Of a stretch of DNA of 42,398 nt, positions 7,209 to 41,683 are shown in pieces. The notes beneath the pieces were generated by a model. It was not told the DNA's origin and did no database searches. It saw nothing but the letters and a program-made list of their open reading frames with translations. Numbering within the stretch: position 1 is the stretch's first letter; the number at the start of each line of letters is the position of its first letter. Source of the DNA: a virus; IMG/VR virus record IMGVR_UViG_3300013103_000019, positions 1 to 42,398 of that record. One strand, given 5' to 3'. The translations under genes were made by a program, and so were the position numbers.

Positions 7209-7225
7209 AATAGAGGAGATATATA

Positions 7226-7375
7226 ATGTCAAAAGCTGATTTATTAAAATATGCAAATGAAAATAAACCGGTAGATTTTTCAAAAGAATTTAAAAACGAA
7301 TTAAATCAAAGTATCCAAACTAGATTAAATCCTTCTAAAGAAGAAGAAAAAGAGGGAACTGGAGATGAAGAATGA
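7226..7375 (+). CDS. gp67: Prohead core protein gp67-like (small)
   Basis: 49 residues, too short for usual gene callers. It has a good GAGGAG ribosome-binding site 8-9 bases before the ATG, and its TGA overlaps the ATG of the protease gene (ATGA). The protein is MSKADLLKYANENKP, then FSKEFKNELNQSIQTRL, then a Glu-rich tail. Location between portal and protease is where T4 has gp67, a minor prohead core component cleaved during maturation; the helix-plus-acidic-tail layout also fits. T4 gp67 is 80 residues, so this is a reduced version. Assignment is by position and general character. Confidence 0.65.
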   Translation: MSKADLLKYANENKPVDFSKEFKNELNQSIQTRLNPSKEEEKEGTGDEE

Positions 7376-8046: not shown

Positions 8047-8049
8047 ATT

Positions 8050-8057
8050 GATAAATA
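8050..8057 (+). promoter_or_regulatory. Putative late promoter GATAAATA before gp22
   Basis: GATAAATA lies in the short gap between protease and scaffold genes, 45 bases before the chosen ATG of gp22. Position and sequence fit a T4-like late promoter. Confidence 0.45.
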
Positions 8058-8102
8058 ATAATAAATGTTTTATTATTGAGAAACATCAAAGGAGAAAGAT
8101 TA

Positions 8103-8789
8103 ATGGAAAAATTATTAGAAGCTATTAAAGCTAAACTTGGAGAAGATGTTATTTCCGAGGAATTAATAGCTGATCTTCGTTCCGAATTTGAAGTAATGGT
8201 TAATGAAAAGGTTCAAGAATTAATTATTACTAAAGAAAAAGAACTTGAAGAAGATTCAGCAAAAGAAATGACAGAATTCAAAGATTCTTTAATTGAATCT
8301 TTAGATAAATATATTGAATATGCAACTGATGAATATCTAAAGGAAAATGAAGTTGCTTTAGAAGCTAAAACAAAAGTTGAAGCAGCAACTAAAATTATTG
8401 AAGCAGCTAAAGGAGTTTTTGCAGAAATTGGTTTAGAAATTCCGGAATCTGAAATTGATAGAGTTAAAGAATTAGAAGAAGAAATTAAAGAAGTAAATGA
8501 AAAATTAAATAATTCAATTGAAGAAATTATTGAAGCTAAGAAACAAAATTTTGAATACGAAAAAGCAATTAGTTTTCAAAAATTAACTACAGATTTAGCA
8601 GAATCTAAAATTGAAGAAGTACATACTTTATTAGAAGGTTTAGAATATTCTGATATTGAAGATTTTGAACGTAAAGTTAAAATTGTGATGGGGAAAATTA
8701 AAGATATTAAAGAAGAAGAAGAAGAAAATTTAGATCTAGATGATTTAAAGGAACAAAAGAAAAGTTCCATCGATAAATATCTAGTTTAA
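8103..8789 (+). CDS. gp22: Prohead scaffold protein gp22-like
   Basis: 228 residues from the ATG at 8103, which has a clear AAAGGAG ribosome-binding site (8 bases away); an in-frame TTG at 8076 lacks one and was not used. The protein is almost entirely charged helix, dominated by Glu, Lys, Ala, Leu and Ile (for example ELEEEIKEVNEKLNNSIEEI), as expected for the scaffold core that is later chopped to peptides by gp21. T4 gp22 is 269 residues. The C-terminal segment EEEEENLDLDDLKEQKKS followed by IDKYLV resembles the conserved gp22 tail. It lies between protease and capsid genes, as in T4. Sequence similarity in such proteins is weak, so position carries the call. Confidence 0.85.
   Translation: MEKLLEAIKAKLGEDVISEELIADLRSEFEVMVNEKVQELIITKEKELEEDSAKEMTEFKDSLIESLDKYIEYATDEYLKENEVALEAKTKVEAATKIIEAAKGVFAEIGLEIPESEIDRVKELEEEIKEVNEKLNNSIEEIIEAKKQNFEYEKAISFQKLTTDLAESKIEEVHTLLEGLEYSDIEDFERKVKIVMGKIKDIKEEEEENLDLDDLKEQKKSSIDKYLV
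8772..8779 (+). promoter_or_regulatory. Putative late promoter GATAAATA before gp23
   Basis: GATAAATA falls in the last codons of gp22 and ends 28 bases before the capsid ATG. Additional transcription of the capsid gene, the most abundant product, would be expected here. Confidence 0.5.
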
Positions 8790-25423: not shown

Positions 25424-25819
25424 ATGCTTACATTTACTAAAAATCCAAAAATTAGAAGTGATTCAATGGGTGATGGACATTATTTAGCACCAAGAGGAAA
25501 TCATATCCATCAAGGTGTTGATTGGGAAGCACGTCCTTATGAAGAAATTTATACTCCTATTGATTGTAAAATAATTAGATTAGCATATCCTTATGTAGGA
25601 GATCTTTATTATAAAGGTCTTTTAATTGGAAATAAATATATGAGAATAAAAATTTTTTATATATCACCACTTGAAAATATTATAGGTAAATTTTTAAAAG
25701 CTGGTGATATTATAGGTTATGCTCAAGATATAACAAAAAAATATGGTAAAAATATGACTAATCATATACATACAGAAATGGATTCATTTGATTTGAATTT
25801 ATTAGTTGGAAAATTATAA
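25424..25819 (+). CDS. M23-family peptidoglycan endopeptidase
   Basis: 131 residues. Zinc ligands of the LytM/M23 family are in place: HQGVD (His29 and Asp33, HxxxD) and HIH (His114 and His116), with LKAGDIIGYAQD before the last, as in M23 enzymes. These cleave peptide cross-links in peptidoglycan. There is no signal peptide, so export would need a holin or virion association. A holin candidate (25837) and another wall hydrolase candidate (26022) follow. A minimal length suggests a bare catalytic domain. Confidence 0.85.
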   Translation: MLTFTKNPKIRSDSMGDGHYLAPRGNHIHQGVDWEARPYEEIYTPIDCKIIRLAYPYVGDLYYKGLLIGNKYMRIKIFYISPLENIIGKFLKAGDIIGYAQDITKKYGKNMTNHIHTEMDSFDLNLLVGKL

Positions 25820-25836
25820 AAAAGGAGGAGTTAATA

Positions 25837-26025
25837 ATGAAATTTTTTTCAGAAGGAAGTGGGGACGAATTAGCATTATTTGCATTAGCTTTAATGTTAA
25901 TTATTGGAGTTGGTCTTCTTGGTTATTTTGGTAAAAATAATGATATTTTAAAATGGGTTCCATATGGAGGAACTGCTTGGTTATCATCTTTTGCAACTTA
26001 TTTAAAAACAGGACTTAAAAAATGA
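25837..26025 (+). CDS. Small membrane protein, holin candidate
   Basis: 62 residues. One clear transmembrane helix, ALFALALMLIIGVGLLGYF (about 13-31), is followed by a short linker and a weaker hydrophobic segment (TAWLSSFATYL, 46-56) and a basic end (KTGLKK). The strongest ribosome-binding site in the cassette, AAAGGAGGAG, precedes it. Position between an M23 peptidase and a papain-fold hydrolase fits a holin, which would release those enzymes. Size and topology also fit; nothing here proves it. Overlaps the next gene by ATGA. Confidence 0.6.
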   Translation: MKFFSEGSGDELALFALALMLIIGVGLLGYFGKNNDILKWVPYGGTAWLSSFATYLKTGLKK

Positions 26026-27240: not shown

Positions 27241-28128
27241 ATGAGTCTATATCCAAAAAATTCTTTATATCCAGATAATGGTCAATATCCTGATGTAGCA
27301 ACATATTTGTTTTCAGCAAATATAAAATCAGATACAGTACAACCTAAATTATTTAGATTTGATGTTGATTTAAAATCAACTGATGGTTTAACAGAACCAC
27401 TTTCTGGTTCTGTGACTACTCTTAGAGATGATGGAAAATTTGGTGGAGCGGTAGCAGTTGAAGAATCACATTGTAATAAATTAGTTGCTGATTTTTCAGT
27501 TGATTTTTCAGCAGGTACTGGTTGGCGTTCTAATTATATTACCTTAAATGGTGATGGTTCAGCAACTTTTTCTTCTATTGATGATTGGTATTATTTATCA
27601 ACATCAGTTTCTGGATATTTATCTAATGAATTAGTACCAGGTGAATTAATTTCATTTTCTGGAAAATATAAAGTTAATAGTTGGCCTGCTGATGCTACTA
27701 AAATTACTTTTGCAATTAGATTTATTAACTCTGAAGGATCTTCAGCAGGATATTTAACAAAATCAATTTTAAAAGCAGATGCTTCTGAAGATTATTTAGA
27801 AAGATTTGAATATAATAGTTTCAATGTATATGATGACACAGTAAGTATTGCTTTACTTGCTTATTTTAATGATGCTACTGATGCTACTGGTTCAATAACA
27901 ATTTCAGAATGGCAATTAGAAAAATGTAAATGGTCAAATTCATTTACTACTATTGGAAGTGATAATAAAGTAGCAACAAATCCAGGATTTGAGGATGGTG
28001 ATGAAACCGGATGGAGTTGGAATTGTAATTCTACATATGCAACTCATTCAGTAGTATCCGATAAATCAAAATATGGAACATATTCGCATAAAATGGTTCA
28101 AGATGGTGTGAATTCAGGCGCTGGTTGA
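27241..28128 (+). CDS. Giant tail fibre, N-terminal part up to in-frame TGA
   Basis: 295 residues, ending at TGA 28126-28128; the same frame continues unbroken to 37410, so this is probably the head of a single protein of about 3,390 codons. It opens with a YP-rich motif (LYPKNSLYPDNGQYPD) related to the long repeat unit in the C-terminal region. It then has GKFGGAVAVEE, a beta sandwich, and the start of a carbohydrate-binding-like domain (TNPGFEDGDETGWSW...YSHKMVQDG), which is cut by the stop. The rest of that domain is downstream in frame. The N terminus likely anchors to the tail. The ribosome-binding site is weak. Confidence 0.75.
   Translation: MSLYPKNSLYPDNGQYPDVATYLFSANIKSDTVQPKLFRFDVDLKSTDGLTEPLSGSVTTLRDDGKFGGAVAVEESHCNKLVADFSVDFSAGTGWRSNYITLNGDGSATFSSIDDWYYLSTSVSGYLSNELVPGELISFSGKYKVNSWPADATKITFAIRFINSEGSSAGYLTKSILKADASEDYLERFEYNSFNVYDDTVSIALLAYFNDATDATGSITISEWQLEKCKWSNSFTTIGSDNKVATNPGFEDGDETGWSWNCNSTYATHSVVSDKSKYGTYSHKMVQDGVNSGAG
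28126..28128 (+). other. In-frame TGA within giant fibre frame
   Basis: TGA stands between GGT and CTTACC where the domain GAG-x-LTQTFTV would be expected to carry a sense codon, probably Trp (TGG). TGA is a normal stop in many other genes here (for example 7375, 12621, 14150, 25066), so general recoding is not the explanation. It could be leaky readthrough (TGA followed by C), a nonsense mutation or a sequencing error. Confidence 0.75.
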
Positions 28129-28146: not shown

Positions 28147-31100
28147 GTGAGTGAAAATAAAACTTATAGACTTAAAGTTAATTTTTTTGCAGAATCTGGA
28201 AATTATGCTTATATAAATCTTAGAGACCAGACAACACCATCAAGTCATACAATTTCTAGAGAAGGTAATGGATCGTGGCAAGAATTAGAAATTATCGTGA
28301 CTATGCCTGCTGGAACGACTCAAGCAAGAGTTTATTTATATTCAACAGTTAGTTCAGTTGATAATACTGTTTATTACGATAATATTGAAGTTGTAGAAGT
28401 TACTGCTCCCGGAGCATTGGATTACCAGACTGATCTTGATTTGACTGAAGATGGTCATGTGCATTTTGTGGTTAATTCTCATAAAAATCCAACAGATCAT
28501 ATTAGTTATTATAGTGGTGCTTTGTGTACTATCGGACGGGGAACCACACGTCAGTTAGATATTTGGATGTATCAAAGTGGTTTATATTTAATAGTAAAAG
28601 GTTCAAGTCATTATATTCAATCTTTTACAAAAAGTATTGATTACACAATAGATGTCACTTGGAAAAATGGTGGTAATCCTAAATTATATGTTGATGGTGA
28701 ATTAAAATATGATGGTAGTTCTTTAGGTGATGATTATTTTACCTATGCTGGTGATGGTAAGTTAGAAATGGGTAGATATGTTGGTCAATGTGTTAATTCT
28801 GTCCTTTTCGATGAGCTTTATTATAGTATTTATTGTCCAACAGATAATAAAATAAAAGAAATATTTGCTGGCCCTTCAAGATTAGATATACCAACTGGTA
28901 AAGATATTCAAGCTAATTTAATAAGAAAACTTATTAATGAAATTAATATTTCTTCTATTAAAGAAAAATTATTTAGATTTGATAAAGATAATTTATTTTA
29001 TAATGGAAATTTAGAATATAAAAATAATACAAATTTTTCTAGTTTTGTATATGATGGAACTGAAGGTTTTAAAGAATTAGGTTGTGTTAAAGTTACATCT
29101 ACAAATAGTAATTTTTCTGATATTCCAATAAATGTTTGTATAGAAAAAAAATATAAAGAAGAAGTAGCTATAAAATCTATTAGCGATAGTGCTAAAATTT
29201 ATTTAGGTTTTAAATGTTTAGATAAAAATAAAAATACTATTTCTTATGCTGCATGTTGGAGAGATCCTGATAAAGATACAACTTTAGCTGCTGATGTTAC
29301 TTCTAGTGATAATATTGTTTATGTTGAACCAGCAAGTGAAAATTGGTTTGCTGTTTCAAATTCATTTATTCAATTTAATCCTACTGAAGATGATCATGAA
29401 TTACCAGATAAAACTTTAAGAATTTCTTCAGATTCTGATTCAATAGAAACTATAACAAATATTGCTTTACAAAGTGAAGCTTTTGATACTTCTCCAAATC
29501 ATTGTGGTTATGCTTCAATTTCTGCAAATGCGACAACTGCACCAGATGGAACAACTACTGCGGATAAATTAGTTGAAAATTCTGATGACAATTATCATTA
29601 TACTTATCAAACCGATATTAGTATTTCTTCAAGCACTACTTATAATATGTCAGTATATGCTAAAAAAGGAGAAAGAGATACTTTAGCTTTTTATTATTAT
29701 GATAATAATTCAACAAGAGTATCTGTTAATGGTTATTTTGATTTAACGAATGGAACCTGTACAGGTAGTTCTGGAGTAGCAATTGAATCTGTTGGTAGTG
29801 GTTGGTATAGATGTTCTGTTCCAATAACAACTGGATCTGATGCAACAATTTTAAATCTTCATAATCATATAAGAGTAAGTGGTTCAAATTCTTATCAAGG
29901 TGATGGTTCTTCTGGATTATATCTTTGGGGTCAACAAGTAACTGAAGGTTCAACATTATATCCTTATACTAAAACAACAACTTCATCAAAAGATATTTGG
30001 AAAATTACTTTATATAGTGGATATACTGTTGGAGCATCATTTTCTAAAGGTACTGAAATTGGAAATTCTTCATCAGGTGCATCTTATAATTATAATTTAG
30101 CTTCTAATATGATTGCTCCAATAGAATGGACTAATTATTCTGGAATTATTGAAGGTGTTAATTTATATAATCAACAACCAGTATATAATAAATTTCGTAG
30201 AGGAACTGAATATATTGTATTTATGACTCTTCCTAATTATGGAACAGGAACTAATACAATATATTTTGATGATTTTCAATTTTATGAATATGATGAAGAA
30301 TTAAATAAAAAAAATAGTTTAACTTCTGTAGATAAAACAATAACTCCAGAGCCTGGATATCTTGTTACCATGCGTCCTGATGAGGGTAAGTTTGGTGGTG
30401 CGGTAGCGGTTGAGGAAGCGACAGAGAATTTGGCATCAAATCCTTCTGTAGAAATTAATTTAGATGATTGGGCGGGGAGTTATCGTTGCTCAATAGTTCG
30501 GACAAATGAAACAAGTAAATTTGGAGATTATTCAGTTAAGATTACGACTGATGCTTCGGAAGCTGATAACTTTTTTGCGACGATCGCTTCCCCAGCCAGT
30601 AAAATTTCCGCCACTGTTGACACAACTTATGCTTTTACTGCTTATGTAAAAACATCCGAGAATGTTAAACTTGAAATTATTGAATATTATGACGGAGGGT
30701 ACATATCTCATTGGAGTGCTTATTCTAGTGGAGACAATTCAAAATTTGAAAGACTGGAAACTATTTTTACAACCTCAAATGAAACAAATATTGAGTTTGC
30801 TTTAAGGCTTCGTGGAAGCATACCTTGTGCTAAAAGCGCTATTATATATGTTGACGGGGTTCAACTCGAAAAAAAATCCTTCTCAACTTCCTTTGTCGAT
30901 GGTTCACGGTCTGCTGGGAAGTTGAATTACCAGACTGATCTTGATCTAACCAAAGATGGTCATGTACATTTTGTGGTTAATTCTGAAAAGGAAATGACAG
31001 ACCATGATGGGTATACGAATGGAACATTATGTACGATTTGTCAGGGGACAACCTTACAATTACACGCTGTGATGCGGGATATTGGTATGGCTTTAGCAGC

Positions 31101-34100
31101 AAATGGATCTTATGTGGGTGGTTTTATTAATTATTCTGCCAATACTGAATATACAATAGATATTACCTGGAAAAATGGCGGTAATCCTAAAATGTATGTT
31201 AATGGTGTATTGGAATTCGACGGCTCATCTTTGGGAGATAATTATTTCACTTATGCTGGTGATGGTAAGTTAGAAATGGCACGTCGTAAATCTTATGGAA
31301 ACTCCCTTCTTTTCGACGAGCTTTATTATTCAAATATTTGTCCTACTGATAATATAATATCTAATAAATTTCATTCATCAAATAGATTACCAGATTCTTT
31401 AAATATTATTAATATAAAAGCTGAACGTGAATTAAGTTCAAATTTACCATTTGTTTCTTCATTAACTGATATTGATTCTAAAGTTCAAAGAGATTTAGAA
31501 ACAAATTTACCATTTGTTTCTTCATTAACTGATATTGATTCTAAAGTTCAAAGAGATTTAGTATCTTCAATTTCAATTGTATATTCTAATTCAGTTATTG
31601 ATTTGTCATCAGTAAGAGAATTATCAACAAATATAAGTTTAATTTCTCAAACAAATGATATTAATGTTAAAGCTGAAAGAGATTTATTAGCTACTTTATC
31701 AGTTAATCTATCAATTTCAGATGCAATTTTTTATAATGAACGTGATTTAAGAGCTGATATTTATCGTCAACTCTATCCTTCCTCAAATTTTTATCCAGGA
31801 GATGGTGTCCACCCTGGTATATCTGATCAATTTGTATTATCTAAAATTGATATTATTGAAATTACTGTTATTACTTTTGAAGCTGATATTAGTGCTTCAA
31901 CTCTAACTAATGATGCAATTTTTCATGTTGTAAGATCATTAGATAATAATATATCTACGACTTATCAAATTACTAATGTTGATTCTACTGTTGAACGTGA
32001 TTTAATTTCAAATATTCAAAATGTTATTAATTTAACTAATCCAATAGTTGATATAGATAGAGAATTATCTAGTAATATAAGTAATTCAACTTTAACTAAT
32101 AATTCAATTTTTTATATTGTTAGATCTTTAGAATCAAACATTCCTGTTATTTCTTCTATAACAGATATTGACTCTACCGTTTTAAGAGAATTAGAATCAA
32201 ACATTCCTGTTAATACAGAAATTACAAATGTTGACTCTACTGTTTTAAGAGAATTAGAATCAAACATTCCTGTTAATACAGAAATTACAAATGTTGACTC
32301 TACTGTTTTAAGAGAATTATCTGCTACAATTTCTAATGATATTGATTTCACTAATCCAATAGTTGATATAGATAGAGAATTATCTGCTTCAATTATAAAT
32401 ATTTCTGAAATTTCTGATATTGAATTAATTATTGAAAGAAATTTCAGAGCAGATATATTTAGACAATTATATCCAAATACTACATTTTATCCTGGAAATG
32501 GGGTTTATCCTGGCATTTCAGATCAATTTGTATTATCTAAAATTGATATTGTTGAAATTACTATCAGAGAATTATCTTCAAATATTAATATTTCTTTTTC
32601 AACTAATGACACAATATTTTATGGAGTCCGTGAATTATTAGCTAATCAACCATTTACTTCTCAAATTACAAATATTGAGTCATTAGTACATAGAGATTTA
32701 GTTGCAAATATTCCTGTTAATACAGAAATTACAAATGTTGATTTAGATATAATTAGAGAATTATCAACATCAATTGAAAATGTTATTAATTTAACTGATC
32801 CAATCGTTGATATAGATAGAGAATTTAGTTCTAATATTCAAAATGTTATTAATTTAACTGATCCAATAGTTGATATAGATAGAGAATTTAATACTTCTAT
32901 TCCTATTAATATTGATTCTACAGATATTCAAGGAATAGTTGAAAGAGATTTAAAAGCAGATATATTTAGACAAGTATATCCAGAAAATGATTATTATCCA
33001 GGTGAACAAGTATTTCCTGGAATAGCTGATCAATTTGTTTGTTCAAATGTTACAGCTTTAGAAACTACTGGAATTAGTCTTACTGCACAAATTTCAATTG
33101 ATTTTAATGTTGAAAATTTTTATTTAGGTTTAAATCATGAATTTGAAGCAAATATTTCATTTACTACACAAACTTCAAATATTGATGAAATTTTATTTCA
33201 AAGAGATATTACCTCTAATATTCCTATTGTATTTTCTTTAGCCAATCCAATAGTTGATAATGATAGAGAATTTAGTGCAAATATTCAATCAGAATTTAAT
33301 TTAAATAATTTTATTTCTAGTGTCGAACGTGATTTAAGTGAAAATAATTTATGTAATTTTTCACTATCAAACGCAATTTTTTATAATGAACGTGATTTCA
33401 GAGCAGATATATTTAGACAACTTTTTCCAAATGATAGTAGTTATCCTGGAATAACTTTTTATCCTGGTATTTCAGATCAATTTGTATTATCTAAAATTGA
33501 TGCTATTGAAGTTACTGAAAAAACATTAAATGCAAATATACAACTAGAATTTAGTTTAAATAATCCTATTTCTAATGTTGAACATAATTTATCAACAAAT
33601 ATTTCATTTACTACACAAACTTCAGATATTAATGCTATAGAAGTTACTGATAGACCATTAAGTTCAGAAGTTATTCATACTTCAAAAACTTCTAATGTTG
33701 ATATTGAAGTTGATAGAGAATTAGAAACTGATATTAGTATTGAATTTGATGTTTCAGAAATCGAAGCTACAGAAACTACATCATTGACTTTTACAGCTAA
33801 TTCTCTTGGAACATTTTATTTAGGAGATTTAGATTGTTCAGTAGCTAGAGAATTTTCATCTTCAATTAATAATAATTTTAATTTATCAGATACAATATTT
33901 GCTGTCAAACGTGAATTTAGATCAAATATTTTTAAACAATTATATCCTGGAACAATAATATATCCTTCAGATACATTTTATCCTGGTTTTCCAGATCAAT
34001 TTGTTTGTTCAGATATTACTGTTTTTGAAATTACAGGAATTGGTTTATCAGCAAACATTTCAATAATTTCTGATATAGAATTAATTACTGTTGATAATGA

Positions 34101-37100
34101 AAGAGATTTAATTACAAATATTCCTGTTAATACAGAAATTACAGATATTGATGTTGAACGAATAATTTCTAGAGATTTAGTTGCAAATATTCCTGTTAAT
34201 ACAGAAATTACAGATATTGATGCAATAATTCATAAAGATTTAATTGCAAATATTCCTGTTAATACAGAAATTACAGATATTGATGTTACTGGAGCTGGAG
34301 CAATTGAAATAGTTTCTGATATTTCTTTAGATTTTAGTTTATCAGATGCGATAGCAACTTCATTTCATAAAATTGAATTAGTTACAAATATTCCTGTTAC
34401 TACAGAAATCACAAATGTAATTTGTTATAAAGTTATTCCTTTTGTAGCTGATATTTTTAAACAAGTATATCCAGAAAATGATTATTATCCAGGAAATTTA
34501 ATTTATCCAGGAATTGCTGATCAATACATAACATCTAAAATTGATATGTTTGTTGATATTGATCATGAAATTATTTCAATAATTAGACATACTGTTTATA
34601 ATTCAATAATAAATTTTAAAGTTGAAAGAGAATTTACTGCTAATATTCCAAGTAATTTATTTGTTTCAACAATTAACGCAAAAGAAGTTACTGATAGATT
34701 CTTTACTGCAAATATTCCTGTTAATACACAAACTTCAGACGTTGAACCACAAATAGTTGGTATTTCAGCCTTTAGAACTAATTTAGATATTAATACAACT
34801 TGTTCTAATATTGATTTAATTAAACATTTTTATTATGAAGCAAATATTGAAAGTGTTATTGATAATAATGAAATAAAAGTAGAAGTAGAACAAGGAATAT
34901 TATTTAATTCATTTATTGAAAATACTATTGATAATTCTGAAATTAGTATTTCAGTTGAAAGATTATTAGCTGCTGATATTCATAAACAAACTTATCCAAA
35001 AGTATCAAATTTACCTAATAATGATTTTTATCCTGGTTTAAGAGATCAATTTGTTTGTTCATCAGCTAAAGCAATTGAATCTACTGAAAGAACTTTACGT
35101 TCAATAATCAGACATACAGTTAAATTATCAGTTCCAATAGCTGAAAATATAATTCCATTAATTGCTGATATCAAAAATGATTTTGATATATCACTAGTAC
35201 TTTGTAGAAATAATTATTATTTTATTTCAAATATTGTCAATGATTTTATAACTTCTAATTTAGATGTTCAAGAAGTCACAGAAACAAGTTTAAGAACTAA
35301 TATTCTTACTAATTTTATAAATTCAAATATTGAATTTTATTTTATTACTGATTTTAATACAAATATTCAATCAGTAATAAATCTTTCAAATATTGAAGCA
35401 GTTGAAATAACAGGTATTCCACTTGTAGCATTTATTGAAAATTGTTATTCTATAACTGATATTTCATTAACAAATATTAGACAATTTAAAGCTAATATTT
35501 TTAGACAAGATTATCCAACAAATAATAGTTATCCTAATAATGGTTTTTATCCTGGTTTACAAGATCAATTTGTTTGTTCTAAAATTAATGCAATTGAAGT
35601 TACTGATATAAATTTACGTTCAACAATTAGACATACTGTTATTAATAATAATATAGATGTTTCATTAGAAAATTCATTATCAGCAACAATTAATAATGAA
35701 ATAACAGTTACAGATATTGATGCTAAAAGTGTTAAAGATGTTTTCTTAAAAGCAGATATATTAAAAAGTAAATATCCTGGTGAAAGAATTTTTCCAAATG
35801 AAGTATTTTATCCAGGACACGAAGAATTATTTATTTGTAGTGATGTTAATATTGCTTCAACTTATAGTTGTGAAATAAATTCTTCATTTATATGTTCAGA
35901 AATTTATATTGCACAAGAAAAAGCATTAACTTCTAATATTCAAATAGAATTTAATGTTAATGATATTAAAGCATCAGAAATTACAGGTATTCCACTTGTA
36001 GCATTCATTGAAAATAATATTGATGCATCAGATATTGAAGCAATTTCAGTTACTGAAAGATTTTTTAATTCAAATATTTCAATAGAAACTTCATTATCAA
36101 ATAGTATTGTAATAGTTTCTAGAAATATTGAATTAAATGCAAATATTCAAATCAATACAGAAACAAATATTGTTAATGCAATTGAAGTTACTGATAGATT
36201 TTTCAATGCAAATATTCAAATCAATACAGAAACAAATATTGTTGATGCATTTGTTATAAGATATCTTAATAATAGAGAACTTCTTCTTCAACCAGCATTA
36301 GGATATTTTGTTACTTCAGATGCAGCAGCAGTTGTTTTACGGGAAATAAAACATAGTAGAAGAAAATTTGAAGTTGAAAATATAATTAGTCTTTCAAATA
36401 GTATTGTTTCAAATGAAAGATTATTAATTTCAACAATAGATAATATTGTTACTTCAAAAGATATTGAAGTTAAAAATCTTCATAAATTTTCTTGTGAAGC
36501 AACTTCAATTTTAGATATTACAAATGTTGATATTACTGTTGATAGAGAAATAATTTCTAATATTGAAAATGAATTTAATAATAATAATATTATTATTGTT
36601 TCAATTGAAAGAAATTTATTAAGTCAATTAGAATTACAATTTAATTTAAATACTTTTAATTTATATAATTATTGGGCAATAAATTCAAATATTAATAATA
36701 ATATTAATGTATCATCATTATTAATTAATATAGATAGAGAATTTAATAGTGTTAATGATATTGAATTTAATATTAATGATAATATTGTTATTTCGATTGA
36801 AAGATTATTAGAATTTAATAAATTAAATAGTTTAAATATTTCAGATATTCAAATATTTAAAATTTCTGAATTACTAAATAATATAAATAATAATATTGTC
36901 ATTGATGTAATCAATGCGATAATTACAAAAACATTTGAAAATAGTATTAATGTTAATTTTGATTTTTCAAATATTGATATTTTTTGTTATAGAGAATTTT
37001 TATCTAATATTAATGAATTAGAATTTATTAATAATGATATTATTTTATTATGGGATTATTTAGGTGAAATACTTAAAACAAGAATTAAAAATATTTCTGA

Positions 37101-37410
37101 TTTTTCAAAAATTGAAAATGTTTCAATTTTCAGACATATAAATAATAATAGTATATTCACAAAATTATTAAGAATTCCTCTAGAGAAAAATTATTATGAA
37201 GTTCTTGATAAACAAAAAATAAATAAAACTATTTTTAGAAAATTAGAAAATGTTAGTGAAAAACGAAAAATAAATAAAGAATATTTTAGTTTGATAAATA
37301 ATGAGAGTATTAATTTTAAATTAGAAAAATTAATTGATTATAAACAAAAAATTGAAAATGTAAGTGAGGAAAAAGATTTCCCACTAATAGTAATCAATAT
37401 TCAAAAATGA
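28147..37410 (+). CDS. Giant repeat tail fibre, main part
   Basis: 3,087 residues from a GTG that lacks a ribosome-binding site; probably continuous with the 295-residue part upstream. Layout: the end of a beta-sandwich domain, a laminin-G/concanavalin-like module (28411-28848), spacer domains, a second CBM-like domain (about 30430-30900), a second copy of the laminin-like module (30916-31353), then about 2,000 residues of 21-residue repeats (from 31432), punctuated by nine 43-residue variants carrying xxADIFRQxYP...YPG...DQFVCS. A distinct basic end (about the last 100 residues) closes it. The gene is likely a long fibre contacting the host surface. An adhesin-like or shaft role is inferred from repeats and sugar-binding-like domains. 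Confidence 0.75.
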   Translation: MSENKTYRLKVNFFAESGNYAYINLRDQTTPSSHTISREGNGSWQELEIIVTMPAGTTQARVYLYSTVSSVDNTVYYDNIEVVEVTAPGALDYQTDLDLTEDGHVHFVVNSHKNPTDHISYYSGALCTIGRGTTRQLDIWMYQSGLYLIVKGSSHYIQSFTKSIDYTIDVTWKNGGNPKLYVDGELKYDGSSLGDDYFTYAGDGKLEMGRYVGQCVNSVLFDELYYSIYCPTDNKIKEIFAGPSRLDIPTGKDIQANLIRKLINEINISSIKEKLFRFDKDNLFYNGNLEYKNNTNFSSFVYDGTEGFKELGCVKVTSTNSNFSDIPINVCIEKKYKEEVAIKSISDSAKIYLGFKCLDKNKNTISYAACWRDPDKDTTLAADVTSSDNIVYVEPASENWFAVSNSFIQFNPTEDDHELPDKTLRISSDSDSIETITNIALQSEAFDTSPNHCGYASISANATTAPDGTTTADKLVENSDDNYHYTYQTDISISSSTTYNMSVYAKKGERDTLAFYYYDNNSTRVSVNGYFDLTNGTCTGSSGVAIESVGSGWYRCSVPITTGSDATILNLHNHIRVSGSNSYQGDGSSGLYLWGQQVTEGSTLYPYTKTTTSSKDIWKITLYSGYTVGASFSKGTEIGNSSSGASYNYNLASNMIAPIEWTNYSGIIEGVNLYNQQPVYNKFRRGTEYIVFMTLPNYGTGTNTIYFDDFQFYEYDEELNKKNSLTSVDKTITPEPGYLVTMRPDEGKFGGAVAVEEATENLASNPSVEINLDDWAGSYRCSIVRTNETSKFGDYSVKITTDASEADNFFATIASPASKISATVDTTYAFTAYVKTSENVKLEIIEYYDGGYISHWSAYSSGDNSKFERLETIFTTSNETNIEFALRLRGSIPCAKSAIIYVDGVQLEKKSFSTSFVDGSRSAGKLNYQTDLDLTKDGHVHFVVNSEKEMTDHDGYTNGTLCTICQGTTLQLHAVMRDIGMALAANGSYVGGFINYSANTEYTIDITWKNGGNPKMYVNGVLEFDGSSLGDNYFTYAGDGKLEMARRKSYGNSLLFDELYYSNICPTDNIISNKFHSSNRLPDSLNIINIKAERELSSNLPFVSSLTDIDSKVQRDLETNLPFVSSLTDIDSKVQRDLVSSISIVYSNSVIDLSSVRELSTNISLISQTNDINVKAERDLLATLSVNLSISDAIFYNERDLRADIYRQLYPSSNFYPGDGVHPGISDQFVLSKIDIIEITVITFEADISASTLTNDAIFHVVRSLDNNISTTYQITNVDSTVERDLISNIQNVINLTNPIVDIDRELSSNISNSTLTNNSIFYIVRSLESNIPVISSITDIDSTVLRELESNIPVNTEITNVDSTVLRELESNIPVNTEITNVDSTVLRELSATISNDIDFTNPIVDIDRELSASIINISEISDIELIIERNFRADIFRQLYPNTTFYPGNGVYPGISDQFVLSKIDIVEITIRELSSNINISFSTNDTIFYGVRELLANQPFTSQITNIESLVHRDLVANIPVNTEITNVDLDIIRELSTSIENVINLTDPIVDIDREFSSNIQNVINLTDPIVDIDREFNTSIPINIDSTDIQGIVERDLKADIFRQVYPENDYYPGEQVFPGIADQFVCSNVTALETTGISLTAQISIDFNVENFYLGLNHEFEANISFTTQTSNIDEILFQRDITSNIPIVFSLANPIVDNDREFSANIQSEFNLNNFISSVERDLSENNLCNFSLSNAIFYNERDFRADIFRQLFPNDSSYPGITFYPGISDQFVLSKIDAIEVTEKTLNANIQLEFSLNNPISNVEHNLSTNISFTTQTSDINAIEVTDRPLSSEVIHTSKTSNVDIEVDRELETDISIEFDVSEIEATETTSLTFTANSLGTFYLGDLDCSVAREFSSSINNNFNLSDTIFAVKREFRSNIFKQLYPGTIIYPSDTFYPGFPDQFVCSDITVFEITGIGLSANISIISDIELITVDNERDLITNIPVNTEITDIDVERIISRDLVANIPVNTEITDIDAIIHKDLIANIPVNTEITDIDVTGAGAIEIVSDISLDFSLSDAIATSFHKIELVTNIPVTTEITNVICYKVIPFVADIFKQVYPENDYYPGNLIYPGIADQYITSKIDMFVDIDHEIISIIRHTVYNSIINFKVEREFTANIPSNLFVSTINAKEVTDRFFTANIPVNTQTSDVEPQIVGISAFRTNLDINTTCSNIDLIKHFYYEANIESVIDNNEIKVEVEQGILFNSFIENTIDNSEISISVERLLAADIHKQTYPKVSNLPNNDFYPGLRDQFVCSSAKAIESTERTLRSIIRHTVKLSVPIAENIIPLIADIKNDFDISLVLCRNNYYFISNIVNDFITSNLDVQEVTETSLRTNILTNFINSNIEFYFITDFNTNIQSVINLSNIEAVEITGIPLVAFIENCYSITDISLTNIRQFKANIFRQDYPTNNSYPNNGFYPGLQDQFVCSKINAIEVTDINLRSTIRHTVINNNIDVSLENSLSATINNEITVTDIDAKSVKDVFLKADILKSKYPGERIFPNEVFYPGHEELFICSDVNIASTYSCEINSSFICSEIYIAQEKALTSNIQIEFNVNDIKASEITGIPLVAFIENNIDASDIEAISVTERFFNSNISIETSLSNSIVIVSRNIELNANIQINTETNIVNAIEVTDRFFNANIQINTETNIVDAFVIRYLNNRELLLQPALGYFVTSDAAAVVLREIKHSRRKFEVENIISLSNSIVSNERLLISTIDNIVTSKDIEVKNLHKFSCEATSILDITNVDITVDREIISNIENEFNNNNIIIVSIERNLLSQLELQFNLNTFNLYNYWAINSNINNNINVSSLLINIDREFNSVNDIEFNINDNIVISIERLLEFNKLNSLNISDIQIFKISELLNNINNNIVIDVINAIITKTFENSINVNFDFSNIDIFCYREFLSNINELEFINNDIILLWDYLGEILKTRIKNISDFSKIENVSIFRHINNNSIFTKLLRIPLEKNYYEVLDKQKINKTIFRKLENVSEKRKINKEYFSLINNESINFKLEKLIDYKQKIENVSEEKDFPLIVINIQK
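28411..28848 (+). other. Laminin-G-like module, copy 1
   Basis: Starts with ALDYQTDLDLTEDGHVHFVV and ends with LFDELYYSIYCPTDN. The core YTIDVTWKNGGNPKLYVDGE with YAGDGKLEMG is typical of LamG/concanavalin-like sandwiches that bind glycans. Its closest relative in the window is copy 2 (30916-31353). Confidence 0.7.
30916..31353 (+). other. Laminin-G-like module, copy 2
   Basis: Paralogue of copy 1: YQTDLDLTKDGHVHFVVNS, then TIDITWKNGGNPKMYVNG, GDGKLEMARR and LFDELYYSNICPTDN. Base-level identity is high around the shared starts, so the duplication is probably recent or the modules were exchanged. Confidence 0.7.
31432..37100. repeat. 21-residue repeat array with long-unit punctuation
   Basis: Units of 21 residues with the pattern LxxNIPVxTEITxIDxxxxRD (63 bases). 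Exact copies include 32191-32253 and 32254-32316; another near-exact pair starts at 31441 and 31504. Nine longer units begin at 31747, 32443, 32950, 33397, 33916, 34441, 34966, 35485 and 35746. Intervals of 519, 525, 525 and 519 bases between five successive long units show a higher-order period of about 174 residues, and the last interval (261) is half of it. Unit boundaries become less clear near the end. Confidence 0.85.
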
Positions 37411-37418
37411 GGTAAAAA

Positions 37419-38210
37419 ATGAGTTTAACAAATTATGCAGAAAATGCAATCTTAAATCATATTTTTGGGAATACTTCTTATTCACAAGTTTCTACTGTTT
37501 ATGTTGCATTAAGTTCTACAGATGCTGGTGAAGATGCTTCAGGATGGACTGAAGCAACGTATGGTTCTTATACAAGAAAAGCTATTACATTTGGCGCAGC
37601 AGCATCAAGAGCAATAACACAATCTGGAACAGTTACTTTTCCAAAATCTACTTCTGGAGATGAAACATATGGTTATTATGCTATATTTGATGCTTCTTCA
37701 GGTGGTAATATGTTAGCTTATGGTTCATTAAATAATGATATTAATGTCGTTGTTAATAGTACCCCATCAATTGCATCTGGTGAAGTTGTTATTAGTGTAA
37801 ATGCTGGTTCTGGAACAGGAATGTCAGATTATTTAGCAAATGCATTATTAGAATTTATGTTCAAAAATACATCTTATGCACAACCATCAATTTATGTTGC
37901 ATTGGTTACCGCTACTGTTTCAGATTCAGATACAGGATCAACAGTTTCAGATCCTGCTGGAAATAACTATGCTAGAAAAGCTTTTTCAGATTGGTCAACT
38001 GCAACAACTGGAACATTGAATAATAATACAAACATTCAATTTAATACACCTTCTGGTTCTTGGGGAACTATTGTTGCAACAGCATTATGTGATGATTTAA
38101 ATGCCGGTAATATGTTGATGTATGATAATACGAATGTAGTCGATCAAGCTGTAGGATTAAATGATGATGTTAAATTTTTAGCTGGACAATTTGTAACATC
38201 ACTAAATTAA
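37419..38210 (+). CDS. Tail fibre accessory protein with duplicated domain
   Basis: 263 residues made of two related halves. The first has NYAENAILNHIFGNTSYSQVSTVYVALSSTDAGEDASG...YTRKAITF...GYYAIFDASSGGNMLAYGSL; the second repeats it as DYLANALLEFMFKNTSYAQPSIYVALVTATVSDSDTG...YARKAFSDW...ATALCDDLNAGNMLMYDN. This family of small phage beta-proteins is common next to fibres in phages and is usually called a virion structural protein. It follows the giant fibre closely (ribosome-binding GAGG at the junction) and may cap or join it. Confidence 0.65.
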   Translation: MSLTNYAENAILNHIFGNTSYSQVSTVYVALSSTDAGEDASGWTEATYGSYTRKAITFGAAASRAITQSGTVTFPKSTSGDETYGYYAIFDASSGGNMLAYGSLNNDINVVVNSTPSIASGEVVISVNAGSGTGMSDYLANALLEFMFKNTSYAQPSIYVALVTATVSDSDTGSTVSDPAGNNYARKAFSDWSTATTGTLNNNTNIQFNTPSGSWGTIVATALCDDLNAGNMLMYDNTNVVDQAVGLNDDVKFLAGQFVTSLN

Positions 38211-38223
38211 TAGGTTAAATTAA

Positions 38224-38538
38224 ATGACTTTAACATTTGCAATTGGTAAAGAAAATGTTCAAAAAATAAAATTAAGTGATAATTCTACCGGGGTTTTTGC
38301 CCCGGCGGATTTATCAACTGTCACAAGAGTTGTGATGGAATTGGGTGAAGTTGTTATTGATTCAGATATAATAACTGATGCTTTTGATTGGTCAGCTAAT
38401 AATGGAACTATTACAATTAAAATTTTAAATGTTCCAGATTTACAAGAAGGCACATATGACGCATCAGTTACAATATATAAACCTACGGCACCTGCTGGAA
38501 TACAATGGATGCCTTCTTTTAAGGTAAAATTAGTATGA
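38224..38538 (+). CDS. Small beta-rich virion protein (Ig-like/BppU-like)
   Basis: 104 residues. Beta-strand pattern with TLTFAIGKENVQKIKL at the start and YDASVTIYKPTAPAGIQWMPSFKVKLV at the end resembles N-terminal Ig-like domains of baseplate upper proteins (BppU). Assignment is weak. A GC-rich hairpin (38287-38304) lies in its coding sequence. It overlaps gene 13 by 4 bases (ATGA). Confidence 0.5.
   Translation: MTLTFAIGKENVQKIKLSDNSTGVFAPADLSTVTRVVMELGEVVIDSDIITDAFDWSANNGTITIKILNVPDLQEGTYDASVTIYKPTAPAGIQWMPSFKVKLV
38287..38304. repeat. GC-rich perfect hairpin inside coding DNA
   Basis: CCGGGG and CCCCGG flank a TTTTTG loop. The stem of six G-C pairs stands out strongly from the AT-rich surroundings; the codons are ordinary (TGVFAPAD). 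No T-run follows the stem, so a terminator is unlikely. Confidence 0.6.
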
Positions 38539-39233
38539 CAAAAGTAGAATTCAAACAGCATATAATGCAACGTCTAGGATCACCAGTTATTAATATTGAA
38601 ATTGCTGATGAACAGTTAGATATCGCAATCCAAGATACGATTGATAAATTTGTTGAAGTTCATTATGATGGTTTAGATGAAGGTTTTGTTTTTTTAAATT
38701 TAATAAAAGATACTTTAGAATATAATTTACCTATTAATATAAAAACAGTTTTACGAGTTTTATCAATTACTGATTCTTTAATTACTGATGAACCTTTATT
38801 AATTAATCCTTATTTAATTAATAATATGACTCCGACTTATTCTTCTAGTGTTTTAGATTTGGAAATGTTTTATCAAAATATTTCAAATACCGAAAATTAT
38901 CTTAAAAGACAAAAATCATTTGATTTTAATTCAACAACTCATTTAATTAAATTTTTTAAAATAACTTCAGATGAAAAAGTTGCTCTACAAGTATATTCTT
39001 CACCAGTAGATGAAACATTATTATATGAAAATCTTTGGGTAAAAAAATACGCTGCAGCTTTAAGTAAAATTATCTGGGCTGGTAATATTGGAAAATATGA
39101 AGGAGCCACTTTACCAGGTGGAGTTTCATTAAATTATGGATCTATTTTAGAAGAAGGTAAAACAGAAAAAGAATTATTAGAAGAAGAATTATATAATCGT
39201 TATCAAGAACCAATTGACTTTATGTGGGGTTAA
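38535..39233 (+). CDS. gp13: Neck protein gp13-like
   Basis: 232 residues (T4 gp13: 309). gp13 and gp14 form the head-tail neck on the portal. LGSPVINIEIADEQLDIAIQDTIDKFVEVHYDGLDEGF (about 14-51) and WVKKYAAALSKIIWAGNIGKYEGATLPGGVSLNYGSI (about 167-203) are family marks of gp13 in T4-like phages. Gene 14 follows, as in T4. Start overlaps the previous stop (ATGA). Confidence 0.85.
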   Translation: MTKVEFKQHIMQRLGSPVINIEIADEQLDIAIQDTIDKFVEVHYDGLDEGFVFLNLIKDTLEYNLPINIKTVLRVLSITDSLITDEPLLINPYLINNMTPTYSSSVLDLEMFYQNISNTENYLKRQKSFDFNSTTHLIKFFKITSDEKVALQVYSSPVDETLLYENLWVKKYAAALSKIIWAGNIGKYEGATLPGGVSLNYGSILEEGKTEKELLEEELYNRYQEPIDFMWG

Positions 39234-39269: not shown

Positions 39270-39863
39270 ATGATGGGTTATTTTAATTTTTTTGAAGAAA
39301 ATTCTTCAAATGAATATGCTTTATATAATGATAATACTTTAGAATATATTGAACAATATGGTATTCCTGTAATTTATTTACCAAGAACATCTATAGCTCA
39401 AGATGATTTATTTGGTGAAGATGATTTATCAACATTTGATGAAAAAATTGAATGTAAGATGTTATTAGATGATTATACAGCTTTTGGTGGTCAACAAGAT
39501 TTCTTTTCTAAATTTGGTTTAGAAATTGATGATACATTAAAATTAAAAATTCAACAAAATTATATGATTGAATTATTAGGTGGTGAATTACCAGAGATTG
39601 GAGATTTAATTCAATTTAAATTTAATAAAGTGATTTTTGAAATATCATTTGTAGAAGATGAAGAAATATTTTATTTAGCTGGAGGACAAACTTTATTTAC
39701 TTTTTCAGCTAAAAAATGGAATTATTCAGGAGAAATTCTTGATACAGGTGATATTAATATTGATATATTAGAAGATAAAATATCAGCTAAAGATGATTCA
39801 ATTCAAACTTTTACAGATATATTAGAATTTAATGAAACTGATCCATTTAACGATGGATTTTAA
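39270..39863 (+). CDS. gp14: Neck protein gp14-like
   Basis: 197 residues (T4 gp14: 256). The conserved core YIEQYGIPVIYLPRTSIAQDDLFGEDDLSTF (about 26-56) and later YMIELLGGELPEIGDLIQF and FTFSAKKWNYSGEILDTGD match the gp14 family. It follows gp13 as in T4. The start is ATGATG; 39270 is taken because of the TAGGA at a reasonable distance. A terminator follows. Confidence 0.88.
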   Translation: MMGYFNFFEENSSNEYALYNDNTLEYIEQYGIPVIYLPRTSIAQDDLFGEDDLSTFDEKIECKMLLDDYTAFGGQQDFFSKFGLEIDDTLKLKIQQNYMIELLGGELPEIGDLIQFKFNKVIFEISFVEDEEIFYLAGGQTLFTFSAKKWNYSGEILDTGDINIDILEDKISAKDDSIQTFTDILEFNETDPFNDGF

Positions 39864-39897
39864 AGAGTTATTGAAGATGAAATATGTGTCCTCCTCG

Positions 39898-39934
39898 TTG
39901 GGATTTTCTTTGTGAGGGAAAATCCCAATTTTTA
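39898..39934 (+). terminator. Rho-independent terminator after gp14
   Basis: TTGGGATTTTC (39898-39908) pairs perfectly with GAAAATCCCAA (39918-39928) around a 9-base loop, then TTTTTATTT. It ends the neck operon in a 257-base gap that holds nothing else coding. Confidence 0.9.
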
Positions 39935-40019
39935 TTTATGTAAGTTAATGAAATTATTAAAGTTTTATAAAAAAATCAAATAAATAAAATTTTACTTATT
40001 TTTAACATACACCTTGTTT

Positions 40020-40048
40020 TTGAAAAAAGCGTATTGTAAGTATTAAAT
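40020..40048 (+). promoter_or_regulatory. Candidate promoter before terminase
   Basis: TTGAAA (40020-40025), 17 bases, then TTAAAT (40043-40048). The -35 matches five of six and the -10 four of six. A nearby AAATAAATA (39978 region) could be a weaker late element. With a terminator just upstream, some promoter is needed here. Confidence 0.35.
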
Positions 40049-40120
40049 TTTATTAATGAAAAAACAGAAAATGACGATTAAACGATTTTTTTTAAAATTT
40101 ATAGACTATGGAGAATTTTT

Positions 40121-41683
40121 ATGAATAAAGTATCTTATCAAGGTAATATAAATCTAAACCCTAAAGGTTTCAAAGAAAATTATACTAAAGAACAAATTAG
40201 AGAAATAATTCGTTGTAAATTTGATCCAATTTATTTTATAAAAAATTATATTTATATTGTAAATTTGGATGATGGATTAATTAAATTTGATTTATATGAT
40301 TATCAAACTAAATTTATTAATTTAATACATAATAATAAAAGAATTATAGCAAAACTTGGAAGACAATCAGGAAAGACTGCATCTTTTGCAGCTTATATGT
40401 GTCATTATATAATATTCAATGAAAATAAAACTGCAGCAATTTTAGGTAATAAAGATAAGACAGCTAGAGAAATATTATATAGAATAAAAATAATGTTTGA
40501 AAATCTTCCAAAATGGTTAAAACCTGGAGTTGTTGAATGGAATAAAGGAACTGTTGAATTTGATAATGGTTCTAGAATAGTTACAGCAGCAACAAGTTCA
40601 TCAGCCATTCGTGGTATGGCAATAAATTTTTTAGCACTTGATGAATTTGCATTTATTCATCATGGTGTTTTTGAAGACTTCATTCAATCTGTTTATCCAA
40701 CTATTTCAACATCAAAAGAAGCTAAAATTTTAATGGTTTCTACTCCTTGGGGATTAAATCACTTTTATAAATTTTGGATTGAAGCAGAAAAAGGAATAAA
40801 TGGTTATAAATATTTTAGTATAAAATGGAATGAAGTTCCTGGTCGAGATGAAGCTTGGCGTGAAAAAATGATTTCTGAAATAGGAATTGAAAGATTCCGA
40901 CAAGAATTTGAATCTGAATTTTTAGGATCATCTAATACTTTAATTGATGTAAATACAATAAGAAATATGGTATTTGAAGACCCAATTTCAATAAATAATG
41001 ATAACTTAAAAATTTATGAAAATCCAATTAAAAATCATAGTTATATTTCTGTTTGTGATGTAGCTGAAGGTGTTGGTGGTGATTATTCTACAATTCAAAT
41101 TATTGATGTCACAACGATTCCATGGAAGCAAGTAGCAGTATTTAATGATAATTTGATTAAAACTAATTTATTTTCTAATGTGATAAATAATATAGGAAAA
41201 GCTTATAATAATTCATTAGTAATTGTTGAAAATAATTCTATTGGTGAATCAGTTTTAAATTCTTTGAATTATGATTATGAATATGAAAATTTATTTTTTT
41301 ATAATAAAAAATTTGGAATTAGGATGACTAGAGGTTCAAAACGATTAGGTTGTTCACATCTTAAAACATTTATAGAATTAAATAAATTAAATATATTAAA
41401 TTTTGAAACAATAGAACAATTTAGTTATTTTGAGAAGCAGAAAAATGGAACGTTTTCTGCTGCTAAAACAAAACATGATGATTTAATTACTCCATTAATT
41501 TTATTTTCATATTTTATGTCAAATGAACAATTAGTTGATATTTGGTTAGAACAAGAAAATATTTTGGGAAAAATTTATTCTAAAGCAATGGAGGAAATAG
41601 AAAATAATTTATTACCAGTAGGCTTTTTTCCAGATTCAATGAAAAAAGAAGATAATTCAATACCATTAGAATATTTTTTTTAA
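40121..41683 (+). CDS. gp17: Large terminase subunit gp17-like
   Basis: 520 residues (T4 gp17: 610). The packaging ATPase/nuclease pumps DNA through the portal and cuts headful lengths. ATPase motifs: Walker A GRQSGKT (80-86), Walker B FLALDEFA (170-177) and the coupling motif VSTP (207-210). The C-terminal RNase H-like nuclease has DVAEGVGGDYS with Asp313, VIVENN with Glu370 and KTKHDD with Asp453/Asp454, matching the acidic triad of T4 gp17. GGAG precedes the ATG. No small terminase (gp16) gene is seen beside it, and gp15 is also absent. Confidence 0.95.
   Translation: MNKVSYQGNINLNPKGFKENYTKEQIREIIRCKFDPIYFIKNYIYIVNLDDGLIKFDLYDYQTKFINLIHNNKRIIAKLGRQSGKTASFAAYMCHYIIFNENKTAAILGNKDKTAREILYRIKIMFENLPKWLKPGVVEWNKGTVEFDNGSRIVTAATSSSAIRGMAINFLALDEFAFIHHGVFEDFIQSVYPTISTSKEAKILMVSTPWGLNHFYKFWIEAEKGINGYKYFSIKWNEVPGRDEAWREKMISEIGIERFRQEFESEFLGSSNTLIDVNTIRNMVFEDPISINNDNLKIYENPIKNHSYISVCDVAEGVGGDYSTIQIIDVTTIPWKQVAVFNDNLIKTNLFSNVINNIGKAYNNSLVIVENNSIGESVLNSLNYDYEYENLFFYNKKFGIRMTRGSKRLGCSHLKTFIELNKLNILNFETIEQFSYFEKQKNGTFSAAKTKHDDLITPLILFSYFMSNEQLVDIWLEQENILGKIYSKAMEEIENNLLPVGFFPDSMKKEDNSIPLEYFF

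Follow-up and report, generated by a model that had tools for sequence, protein, structure and literature searches.

Genes and features of the locus

The 42,398-base IMG/VR record IMGVR_UViG_3300013103_000019 (hereafter the window, meaning this whole stretch) derives from a metagenomic phage and contains a giant open reading frame (ORF) with a long array of 21-residue repeats, in which nine units carry an additional Tyr-Pro-rich (YP) insert (Table 1). By gene content (Portal_T4, a major head protein, baseplate wedge and hub proteins, a T4-type neck protein and a terminase), the virus is a T4-like myovirus, with a G+C content of 25%. The giant ORF ends at position 37410 and a gene for a Gp80-type protein starts at 37419, so that Gp80 adjoins a gene of ~20-residue repeats; the adaptor and neck genes lie downstream of this pair. 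The only close relative found is a contig (L001) that is 99.87% and 99.95% identical over its two long segments; its differences from the window (25795–25903, 29534–30706 and 39865–41413) fall outside the array except for 64 missing bases.

Table 1 Features of the giant repeat gene and its surroundings (positions in the window)
Feature	Position (nt)	Strand	Description
N-terminal open frame	27241..28128	+	same frame as the giant ORF; 295 aa; starts with YP hexads MSLYPKNSLYPDNGQYPD
In-frame TGA splitting the gene	28126..28128	+	inside a carbohydrate-binding-type domain (by eye); also in L001
Giant ORF	28147..37410	+	3087 aa from GTG
Internal duplication, copy 1	28635..28771	+	82% DNA identity; lectin-like (LamG) by eye only
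GTA head-spike-fibre domain (NF048003)	29452..29985	+	residues 436-613; 6tb9 E 4.3e-26; NF048003 E 2.2e-37
Internal duplication, copy 2	31143..31279	+	82% DNA identity
Array	31396..37047	+	~77 units of 21 residues; consensus about RELSANIPNVTSISDIDVTVE
Long unit 1	31741..31869	+	21-residue unit with 22-residue YP insert
Long unit 2	32437..32565	+	
Long unit 3	32944..33072	+	
Long unit 4	33391..33519	+	
Long unit 5	33910..34038	+	
Long unit 6	34435..34563	+	
Long unit 7	34960..35088	+	
Long unit 8	35479..35607	+	
Long unit 9	35734..35868	+	divergent (ELFICS)
C-terminal tail	37048..37407	+	by eye, short repeats of ENVS type; proposed anchor-facing end
Double-Gp80 protein	37419..38210	+	263 aa, two PF23140 stretches; proposed anchor
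104-aa protein	38224..38538	+	third gene of the module (cross-locus sequence comparison)
Head-tail adaptor Ad2	38535..39233	+	phrog_211
T4-type neck protein / head closure	39270..39863	+	family library matches
aa, amino acids; GTA, gene transfer agent; nt, nucleotides.

A two-level repeat architecture

Autocorrelation over residues 1091–2990 of the giant protein has its top peak at a lag of 21 (z 15.8), with further peaks at 169, 173, 232, 42 and 348. A cyclic 21-column profile parses ~77 units over residues 1084–2967 and reaches a score of 1109, where 20 shuffles gave no more than 16.3, the profile having been trained on the same sequence. Hydrophobic positions alternate within the unit. An original prediction, made from this DNA without database searches, had assigned about 2,000 residues to a 21-residue unit; the period stands, but the extent is about 1,880 residues.

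The same prediction counted nine 43-residue units, and nine DQF-like motifs were indeed located, although the long unit proved not to be a separate element but a 21-residue unit with a 22-residue YP insert after position 7, as in RDLRADI-[YRQLYPSSNFYPGDGVHPGISD]-QFVLSKIDI. The automatic parse resolves the insert cleanly in five copies; in the remaining four it is split or shifted. Three Pro residues lie six residues apart within the insert, and positions I28, P34, P40, P46, G47 and S55 of the long-unit alignment are invariant in all nine copies. The Cys at the DQFVCS position, which had been described as conserved, is present in five copies and absent from four, and Cys-linked knobs were rejected on this count as a general feature.

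The motifs lie at nt 31825, 32521, 33028, 33475, 33994, 34519, 35044, 35563 and 35824, giving spacings of 696, 507, 447, 519, 525, 525, 519 and 261 nt, the last five exactly as predicted. Four successive gaps are therefore nearly equal at 173, 175, 175 and 173 residues. The near-equality holds in residues and not strictly in units, the parse giving 6, 6, 6 and 7 short units per gap. Four spacings this similar arise at a rate of 2/300,000 under a continuous placement null and of 0.002 when placement is quantised in whole units, both nulls being crude and chosen after the data had been seen.

Adjacent short units (d = 1, in units) resemble each other more than average (p < 0.0005), and units at d = 6 are slightly more similar (p 0.0015). 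At d = 7 similarity is not raised (0.91 against an average of 0.87, p 0.30), so the long period reflects the spacing of the long units (hereafter nodes) with no visible block duplication, and duplication of 174-residue blocks is unsupported. The repeat is confirmed as an observation, and a two-level architecture, with nodes at near-fixed spacing (four gaps of 173–175 residues) on a repetitive, probably structural phage protein, is supported; because the prolines are invariant and the spacing is near-constant, we argue for a structural role of the nodes.

A regular expression for the YP insert found none in 11 relatives of the short unit, nor in the Gp80-neighbour proteins examined. DNA patterns for the insert matched only the near-identical strain of this virus and otherwise chance sequences, among them the YPGxxDQFV hits L004–L010, L012 and L013, and also L202. 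Within the material searched, regularly spaced YP nodes thus appear peculiar to this virus and its strain.

Relatives of the short unit

No curated family in Pfam, NCBIfam or PHROGs covers the short unit, and a literature search, mostly outside subscription journals, found no paper describing a ~20-residue repeat of this kind. Searches with tblastn of named phages and plasmids, using the repeat region or parts of the relatives L022 and L015, gave no match. The same search with L154 and L187 matched their N-terminal parts alone, and in the two loci followed up the scored genes lacked a repeat of this kind. These negatives are weak, because the low-complexity filter of BLAST may hide repeats.

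We therefore searched IMG/VR by pattern, with three copies of R-x-L-x-A-x-I or of T-P-D in 63-nt steps. The first motif returned 12 stretches, comprising the virus's own strain, six loci with the short unit (L014, L015, L018, L019, L020 and L022) and five with other repeats. Of 57 stretches matching the T-P-D pattern, two were L020 and L022 again; the other 55 included seven further members (L146, L148, L151, L154, L164, L186 and L187), while the remainder had repeats of other kinds or lacked an open frame. As an unclear case, L189 (generic score 30.7) was omitted. Of 12 other loci, 11 score 16.7–115.3 with a profile of the window's units and exceed in every case the best of ten shuffles of the locus itself (8.2–12.7); L146 (9.0) falls short and was retained in the list, and L019, a near-copy of L018, was left unscored. 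These loci share tandem R-x-L-x-[AST]-x-I units, and the profile of one member recognises others, as expected of a family of 21-residue-repeat tethers. A scan of genome contigs with a pattern also admitting Ser at the Arg position was uninformative on prophages: among the matches listed (L025–L143), three combined Arg with an open frame and none of these resembled the unit.

The claim that the scheme has no relatives is unsupported in its original form: the short unit is shared with other phage proteins, many of them encoded beside Gp80 genes, and only the YP inserts were confined, in the material searched, to this virus and its strain. The unit does match a family in viral metagenomes, but not a well-described one.

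Three observations on these and similar proteins may be added. In L018, a lectin-type domain lies ahead of the array (Laminin_G_3, E 6e-6, just under the curated cut-off). Variant units (such as QGIISLIAN) occur now and then in the relatives, in L022 at aa 199, 306, 392 and 457, spaced by 107, 86 and 65 residues. In L242, the upstream protein (1229 aa) has ~22-residue units with recurrent LWVSYIRS-like variants and no YP inserts, another possible two-level design.

Linkage to Gp80

The protein encoded beside the giant ORF matches PF23140 (Podophage GP4 fiber I protein gp80) over two stretches with E 2.6e-55 (186.6 bits against a cut-off of 27), and its two halves are 30% identical. A profile of 11 such proteins (A5) finds the solved chain 8jou_a (E 2e-17) as its sole match at E ≤ 1. 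No second Gp80-type gene was found when 296 open stretches were examined, taken from the window and from four pieces (71 kb, partly overlapping it) of a related contig.

The pairing recurs in the relatives. Ten neighbours of 21-residue-repeat genes were scanned (leaving out L018, L019 and L164), and eight are Gp80, one is VanY (L146) and one HNH (L020), the latter locus having Gp80 on the other side of its repeat gene; the 66-aa ORF after L164 has no family match. The third gene of the module, encoding 104 aa, has kin at the same position in four of six loci compared (Desulfofustis phage LS06-2018-MD01, 2e-11; L014, 3e-6; and, weakly, L186 and L154, 0.002 each) and is unrelated to the corresponding genes of L187 and Slicko01, these E-values being relative to seven sequences.

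Starting instead from Gp80, we took the best 80 of at least 548 confirmed IMG/VR stretches (at least 600 matched), of which 46 are double (match over 650 nt) and 34 single. Beside double Gp80, the upstream neighbour is periodic (z ≥ 3.5) in 24 of 45 testable cases and the downstream one in 7 of 32, and in 23 of 46 a neighbour on one side or the other scores at least 20 with a 21-unit profile. Single Gp80 shows the opposite arrangement, a ~20-residue period being found in 21 of 30 downstream neighbours and 2 of 27 upstream ones; of other ORFs, 42 of 515 are periodic. The z-values were rounded to one decimal before the cut (as for L213 among the named phages below), and the generic profile was trained on L014, L015, L018, L020 and L022. 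Several contigs recur from the searches above (L225/L014, L235/L148, L236/L020, L259/L154 and L262/L015) and some neighbour pairs are apparently identical (L240/L241, L248/L249, L279/L280, L278/L287 and others), so that the counts are not all independent.

In named phages, the gene adjoining Gp80 is periodic in 7 of 12 loci scored, as against 6 of 130 other ORFs. A period of ~20 residues occurs beside Gp80 in Burkholderia JC1, PBC5, Atu_ph08, C72C1, MEP401, ct2t2046 and cta39025, and one of 14/42 in the Desulfofustis phage. No period was detected beside Gp80 in Mvi-JY20, PVJ1 or Octadecabacter virus 2, and Itty13 (3.2) and the next gene of phiM5 (3.0) fell below z 3.5. The 12 loci leave out PBC5, whose period comes from a separate, earlier scoring. 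L212 was dropped because its Gp80 ORF was not called (neighbour z 4.1 in the earlier scoring), and L207 and L208 because they are not Gp80 loci; in L215 the wrong ORF was taken as Gp80.

Two gene orders thus appear, one with the tether followed by double Gp80 and a small gene, the other with single Gp80 followed by the repeat gene, and the combination of a ~20-residue-repeat tether with Gp80 seems to be a widespread and barely described kind.

Two further sets of repeats were noted in these loci. In Octadecabacter virus 2 (L221), a gene annotated 'ribonuclease E' (7065–8591), about two places from Gp80 and counted among the 130 others, has a 22-residue period (z 12.2). Directly 3' of single Gp80, L211 (14413–15288), L217 (3671–4486) and L220 (5380–6210) encode ~20-residue alternating repeats of a different sequence type, one annotated 'serine-rich adhesin'.

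The N-terminal part and the split gene

Upstream of the giant ORF, and in phase with it, the N-terminal open frame begins (27241–27300) with MSLYPKNSLYPDNGQYPD, the same YP hexad as in the nine inserts, followed by YLFSANI, which by eye is long-unit-like. The frame of the giant ORF continues directly 3' of the TGA at 28126–28128, and its presumed GTG start has no Shine-Dalgarno-like sequence by eye. TGA is the stop of 8 of the 35 ORFs examined (the split ORF and the giant ORF included), and recoding is therefore unlikely; genetic code 4 (TGA as Trp) was rejected because TGA also terminates six other ORFs, of which three overlap the start of the following one. The 71 kb of the related contig yielded six tRNAs but no suppressor, and the window yielded no tRNA. 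Downstream of the TGA, the tail-type family phrog_5939 covers only the GTA-like domain, and the internal duplication has no match to Pfam LamG.

Two features elsewhere in the window concern other proteins. The portal gene (4323–7208) contains an intein (TIGR01445 and Intein_splicing, residues ~325–783) with an HNH-like motif, and a structural protein at 18324–19298 matches DUF7483 (PF24299, E 1e-38), with the PHROGs labels 'virion structural protein' and 'tail fiber protein'.

Comparison with described appendages

Fibre I of the Ralstonia podophage GP4 is reportedly a chain of gp80 trimers linked by a rope protein and fixed to a 15-fold ring. Its domain (PDB 8JOU) is the one encoded beside the giant ORF, and in other phages, too, Gp80 genes often adjoin genes of ~20-residue repeats. 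The solved GP4 chain is a single domain of 140 aa, whereas the 263-aa protein of the window has two. A further difference is seen in six named phages that have single Gp80, where the repeat gene is short (170–291 aa) and lies after Gp80.

Another parallel is the Anabaena myophage A-1(L). It has five flexible neck fibres ~100 nm long; the two-domain gp82 (241 aa) fixes each of them to a 15-fold neck ring through its N-terminal domain, gp81 beads follow, and a protein with a carbohydrate-binding module lies at the distal end (PMC10966104). Both A-1(L) (gp82-gp81-gp80) and the window virus are myophages, and a two-domain anchor, a long flexible fibre and a distal carbohydrate-binding module would be further shared features, those of the window virus being putative. 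They differ in that ~14 trimers of a separate bead protein build the A-1(L) fibre, as against one giant polypeptide in the window.

In the Alishewanella siphophage LSH1, a three-gene virion module (gp34–gp36) encodes a payload with a badly predicted C terminus, a protein matching GP4 8JOU_g and an Ig-fold protein (PMC13243795). Its authors propose that the small Ig-fold protein attaches the GP4-like fibril, which holds the payload, and suggest a repetitive motif as one cause of AlphaFold leaving the payload C terminus unmodelled (PMC13243795). LSH1 and the window have in common a payload whose long C-terminal part is poorly modelled, together with a protein like the GP4 fibril and a small one. 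Slicko01, named as a relative of LSH1 (PMC13243795), encodes a likely payload (WGH49683, 1843 aa) with a 20/40-residue period (z 9.5, at lag 40, and 6.8) and, two genes on, a weak Gp80 match (E 0.0036, under the Pfam cut-off). Its repeat is unrecognised by the 21-unit profiles (8.8 and 13.1) and has no YP insert in its sequence, and the payloads of LSH1 and Slicko01 are unlike that of the window.

A further comparison is with gene transfer agents, in which the RcGTA protein Rcc01080 is homologous to residues 436–613 of the giant protein. Rcc01080 has, however, only 325 residues, of which the first ten provide the attachment, and no 21-residue array of such length; in the head spike fibre, a leucine-rich peptide at the extreme N terminus binds a base protein with a jellyroll fold (PMC7296036). 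By eye, the N terminus encoded in the window is the YP stretch and not this peptide.

Solved shafts of the triple beta-spiral or beta-helix type showed no sequence-detectable relation to the array. In profile searches of solved structures, eight short units (alignment A3) matched no chain at E ≤ 10, the long-unit block (alignment A4) found only two weak, unrelated chains, and the best match of the JC1 repeat protein had E 0.34.

A proposed model and its alternatives

On the observed repeat, inserts, node spacing, gene linkage and Gp80 homology, we suggest that the giant protein is the payload-plus-tether of a Gp80-anchored appendage, probably a fibre of the neck or tail junction rather than of the baseplate; for this reading as a whole we regard the chances as about even. 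The N-terminal carbohydrate-binding-type domains, including that of the GTA-spike type, would be the payload, and the ~77 beta-patterned units would form a very long tether that carries these sugar-binding domains away from the particle, with the nine YP-loop units as nodes. Within a virion so built, the presumed polarity would have the C terminus facing the double-Gp80 anchor, which, perhaps together with the 104-aa protein, would join the tether to the head–tail junction. The location is suggested by gene order (that is, adaptor, neck and Gp80 anchor genes), and assignment to a tail fibre is uncertain.

Several observations weigh against this model. As to structure, AlphaFold2 reached a mean predicted local distance difference test (pLDDT) score of only 43.9 for eight short units (A3; its 32 rows include many windows that overlap within one protein) and 34.7 for the long-unit block (A4; nine rows). 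The anchor profile A5 matched no A-1(L) chain, in a comparison by sequence only and with the presence of the 8KEG chains in the searched set unconfirmed, and the distal module of A-1(L) did not bind the host in its authors' assay (PMC10966104). As to linkage, 21 of the 45 testable upstream neighbours of double Gp80 have no period; loci such as L236, L237, L255, L256 and L260, among others, are aperiodic on both sides (L236 being the contig of L020, in which Gp80 and the repeat gene are not directly adjacent); and the repeat gene lies on the opposite side with single Gp80. In PVJ1, Gp80 directly follows 'baseplate J', and in cta39025 a 'baseplate J-like' gene lies ~7.6 kb upstream of it, both of which speak against a fixed neck location. 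As to the gene itself, it is split by the TGA, L001 lacks 64 bases of the array (34644–34707; L001 junction 11245/11246), which breaks the frame and is possibly an assembly error in repeats, and its domain of the GTA spike type could point to a capsid fibre instead.

The first of the alternatives, which we consider unlikely, is a conventional long tail fibre with its N terminus on the baseplate, a trimeric and rigid repeat shaft (triple beta-spiral or beta-helix type) and a C-terminal tip. The length of the protein, its hydrophobic alternation, the T4-like myovirus background, the baseplate genes of PVJ1 and cta39025 and the tail-type phrog_5939, though confined to the GTA-like domain, are in keeping with such a fibre, but the carbohydrate-binding-type domains are N-terminal rather than C-terminal, and the gene adjoins Gp80, adaptor and neck genes, as its relatives pair with Gp80.

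An improbable alternative, compatible with the tether model, concerns the TGA, which may be leaky, so that programmed readthrough would give mostly a 295-aa product and a minority of full-length tether. The position of the TGA in frame and in mid-domain, the lack of an evident ribosome-binding site for the downstream part and the presence of the TGA in both contigs would fit, but the two contigs may represent one population, and a single nonsense mutation or a shared consensus error is simpler.

Doubtful to a greater degree is a capsid-surface fibre like the GTA head spike fibre, with the repeats as a long stalk. The match of residues 436–613 to NF048003 and the Rcc01080 chains, and the frequent annotation of Gp80-type proteins as 'head protein', would agree with it; against this, the GTA fibre attaches by its leucine-rich peptide (PMC7296036), and the window protein, by eye, begins with the YP stretch instead.

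Least probable in our view is a decaying or neutrally expanding gene, grown by slippage, broken by the TGA and of no special architecture, for although the TGA with no suppressor tRNA found, the frame-breaking gap in L001 and the likeness of neighbouring units (as in local tandem duplication) could be so explained, the gap may be an assembly error, a 9.26-kb open frame is kept after the TGA at 25% G+C, and six positions in nine inserts are invariant at near-equal spacing despite diverged surrounding units (d = 7 not raised).

Within the tether model, the nodes could be docking sites for accessory beads, flexible joints or extra binding loops, and the original reading of them as joints or knobs may hold. 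One elaboration, to which we attach little weight, is that accessory beads dock at regular intervals on the nine YP inserts, one at each node (for example, the double-Gp80 or 104-aa protein, as monomer or trimer), and that one polypeptide would thereby act as a molecular ruler for bead number and spacing on a neck fibre, where A-1(L) instead stacks many copies of its bead. A separate bead protein unrelated to Gp80 is possible.

Implications

In LSH1 gp34, the payload domain is accompanied by a long stretch predicted with low confidence, for which no explanation was reported (PMC13243795). Our results suggest that a number of such stretches may be one kind of object, namely a tether of ~20-residue repeats whose gene is linked to Gp80, in either of two gene orders and in both named phages and metagenomic viruses. 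What is new in the window virus is a node recurring at 173–175 residues in four successive gaps, raising the question of whether a repeat protein may measure the spacing of beads on a fibre.

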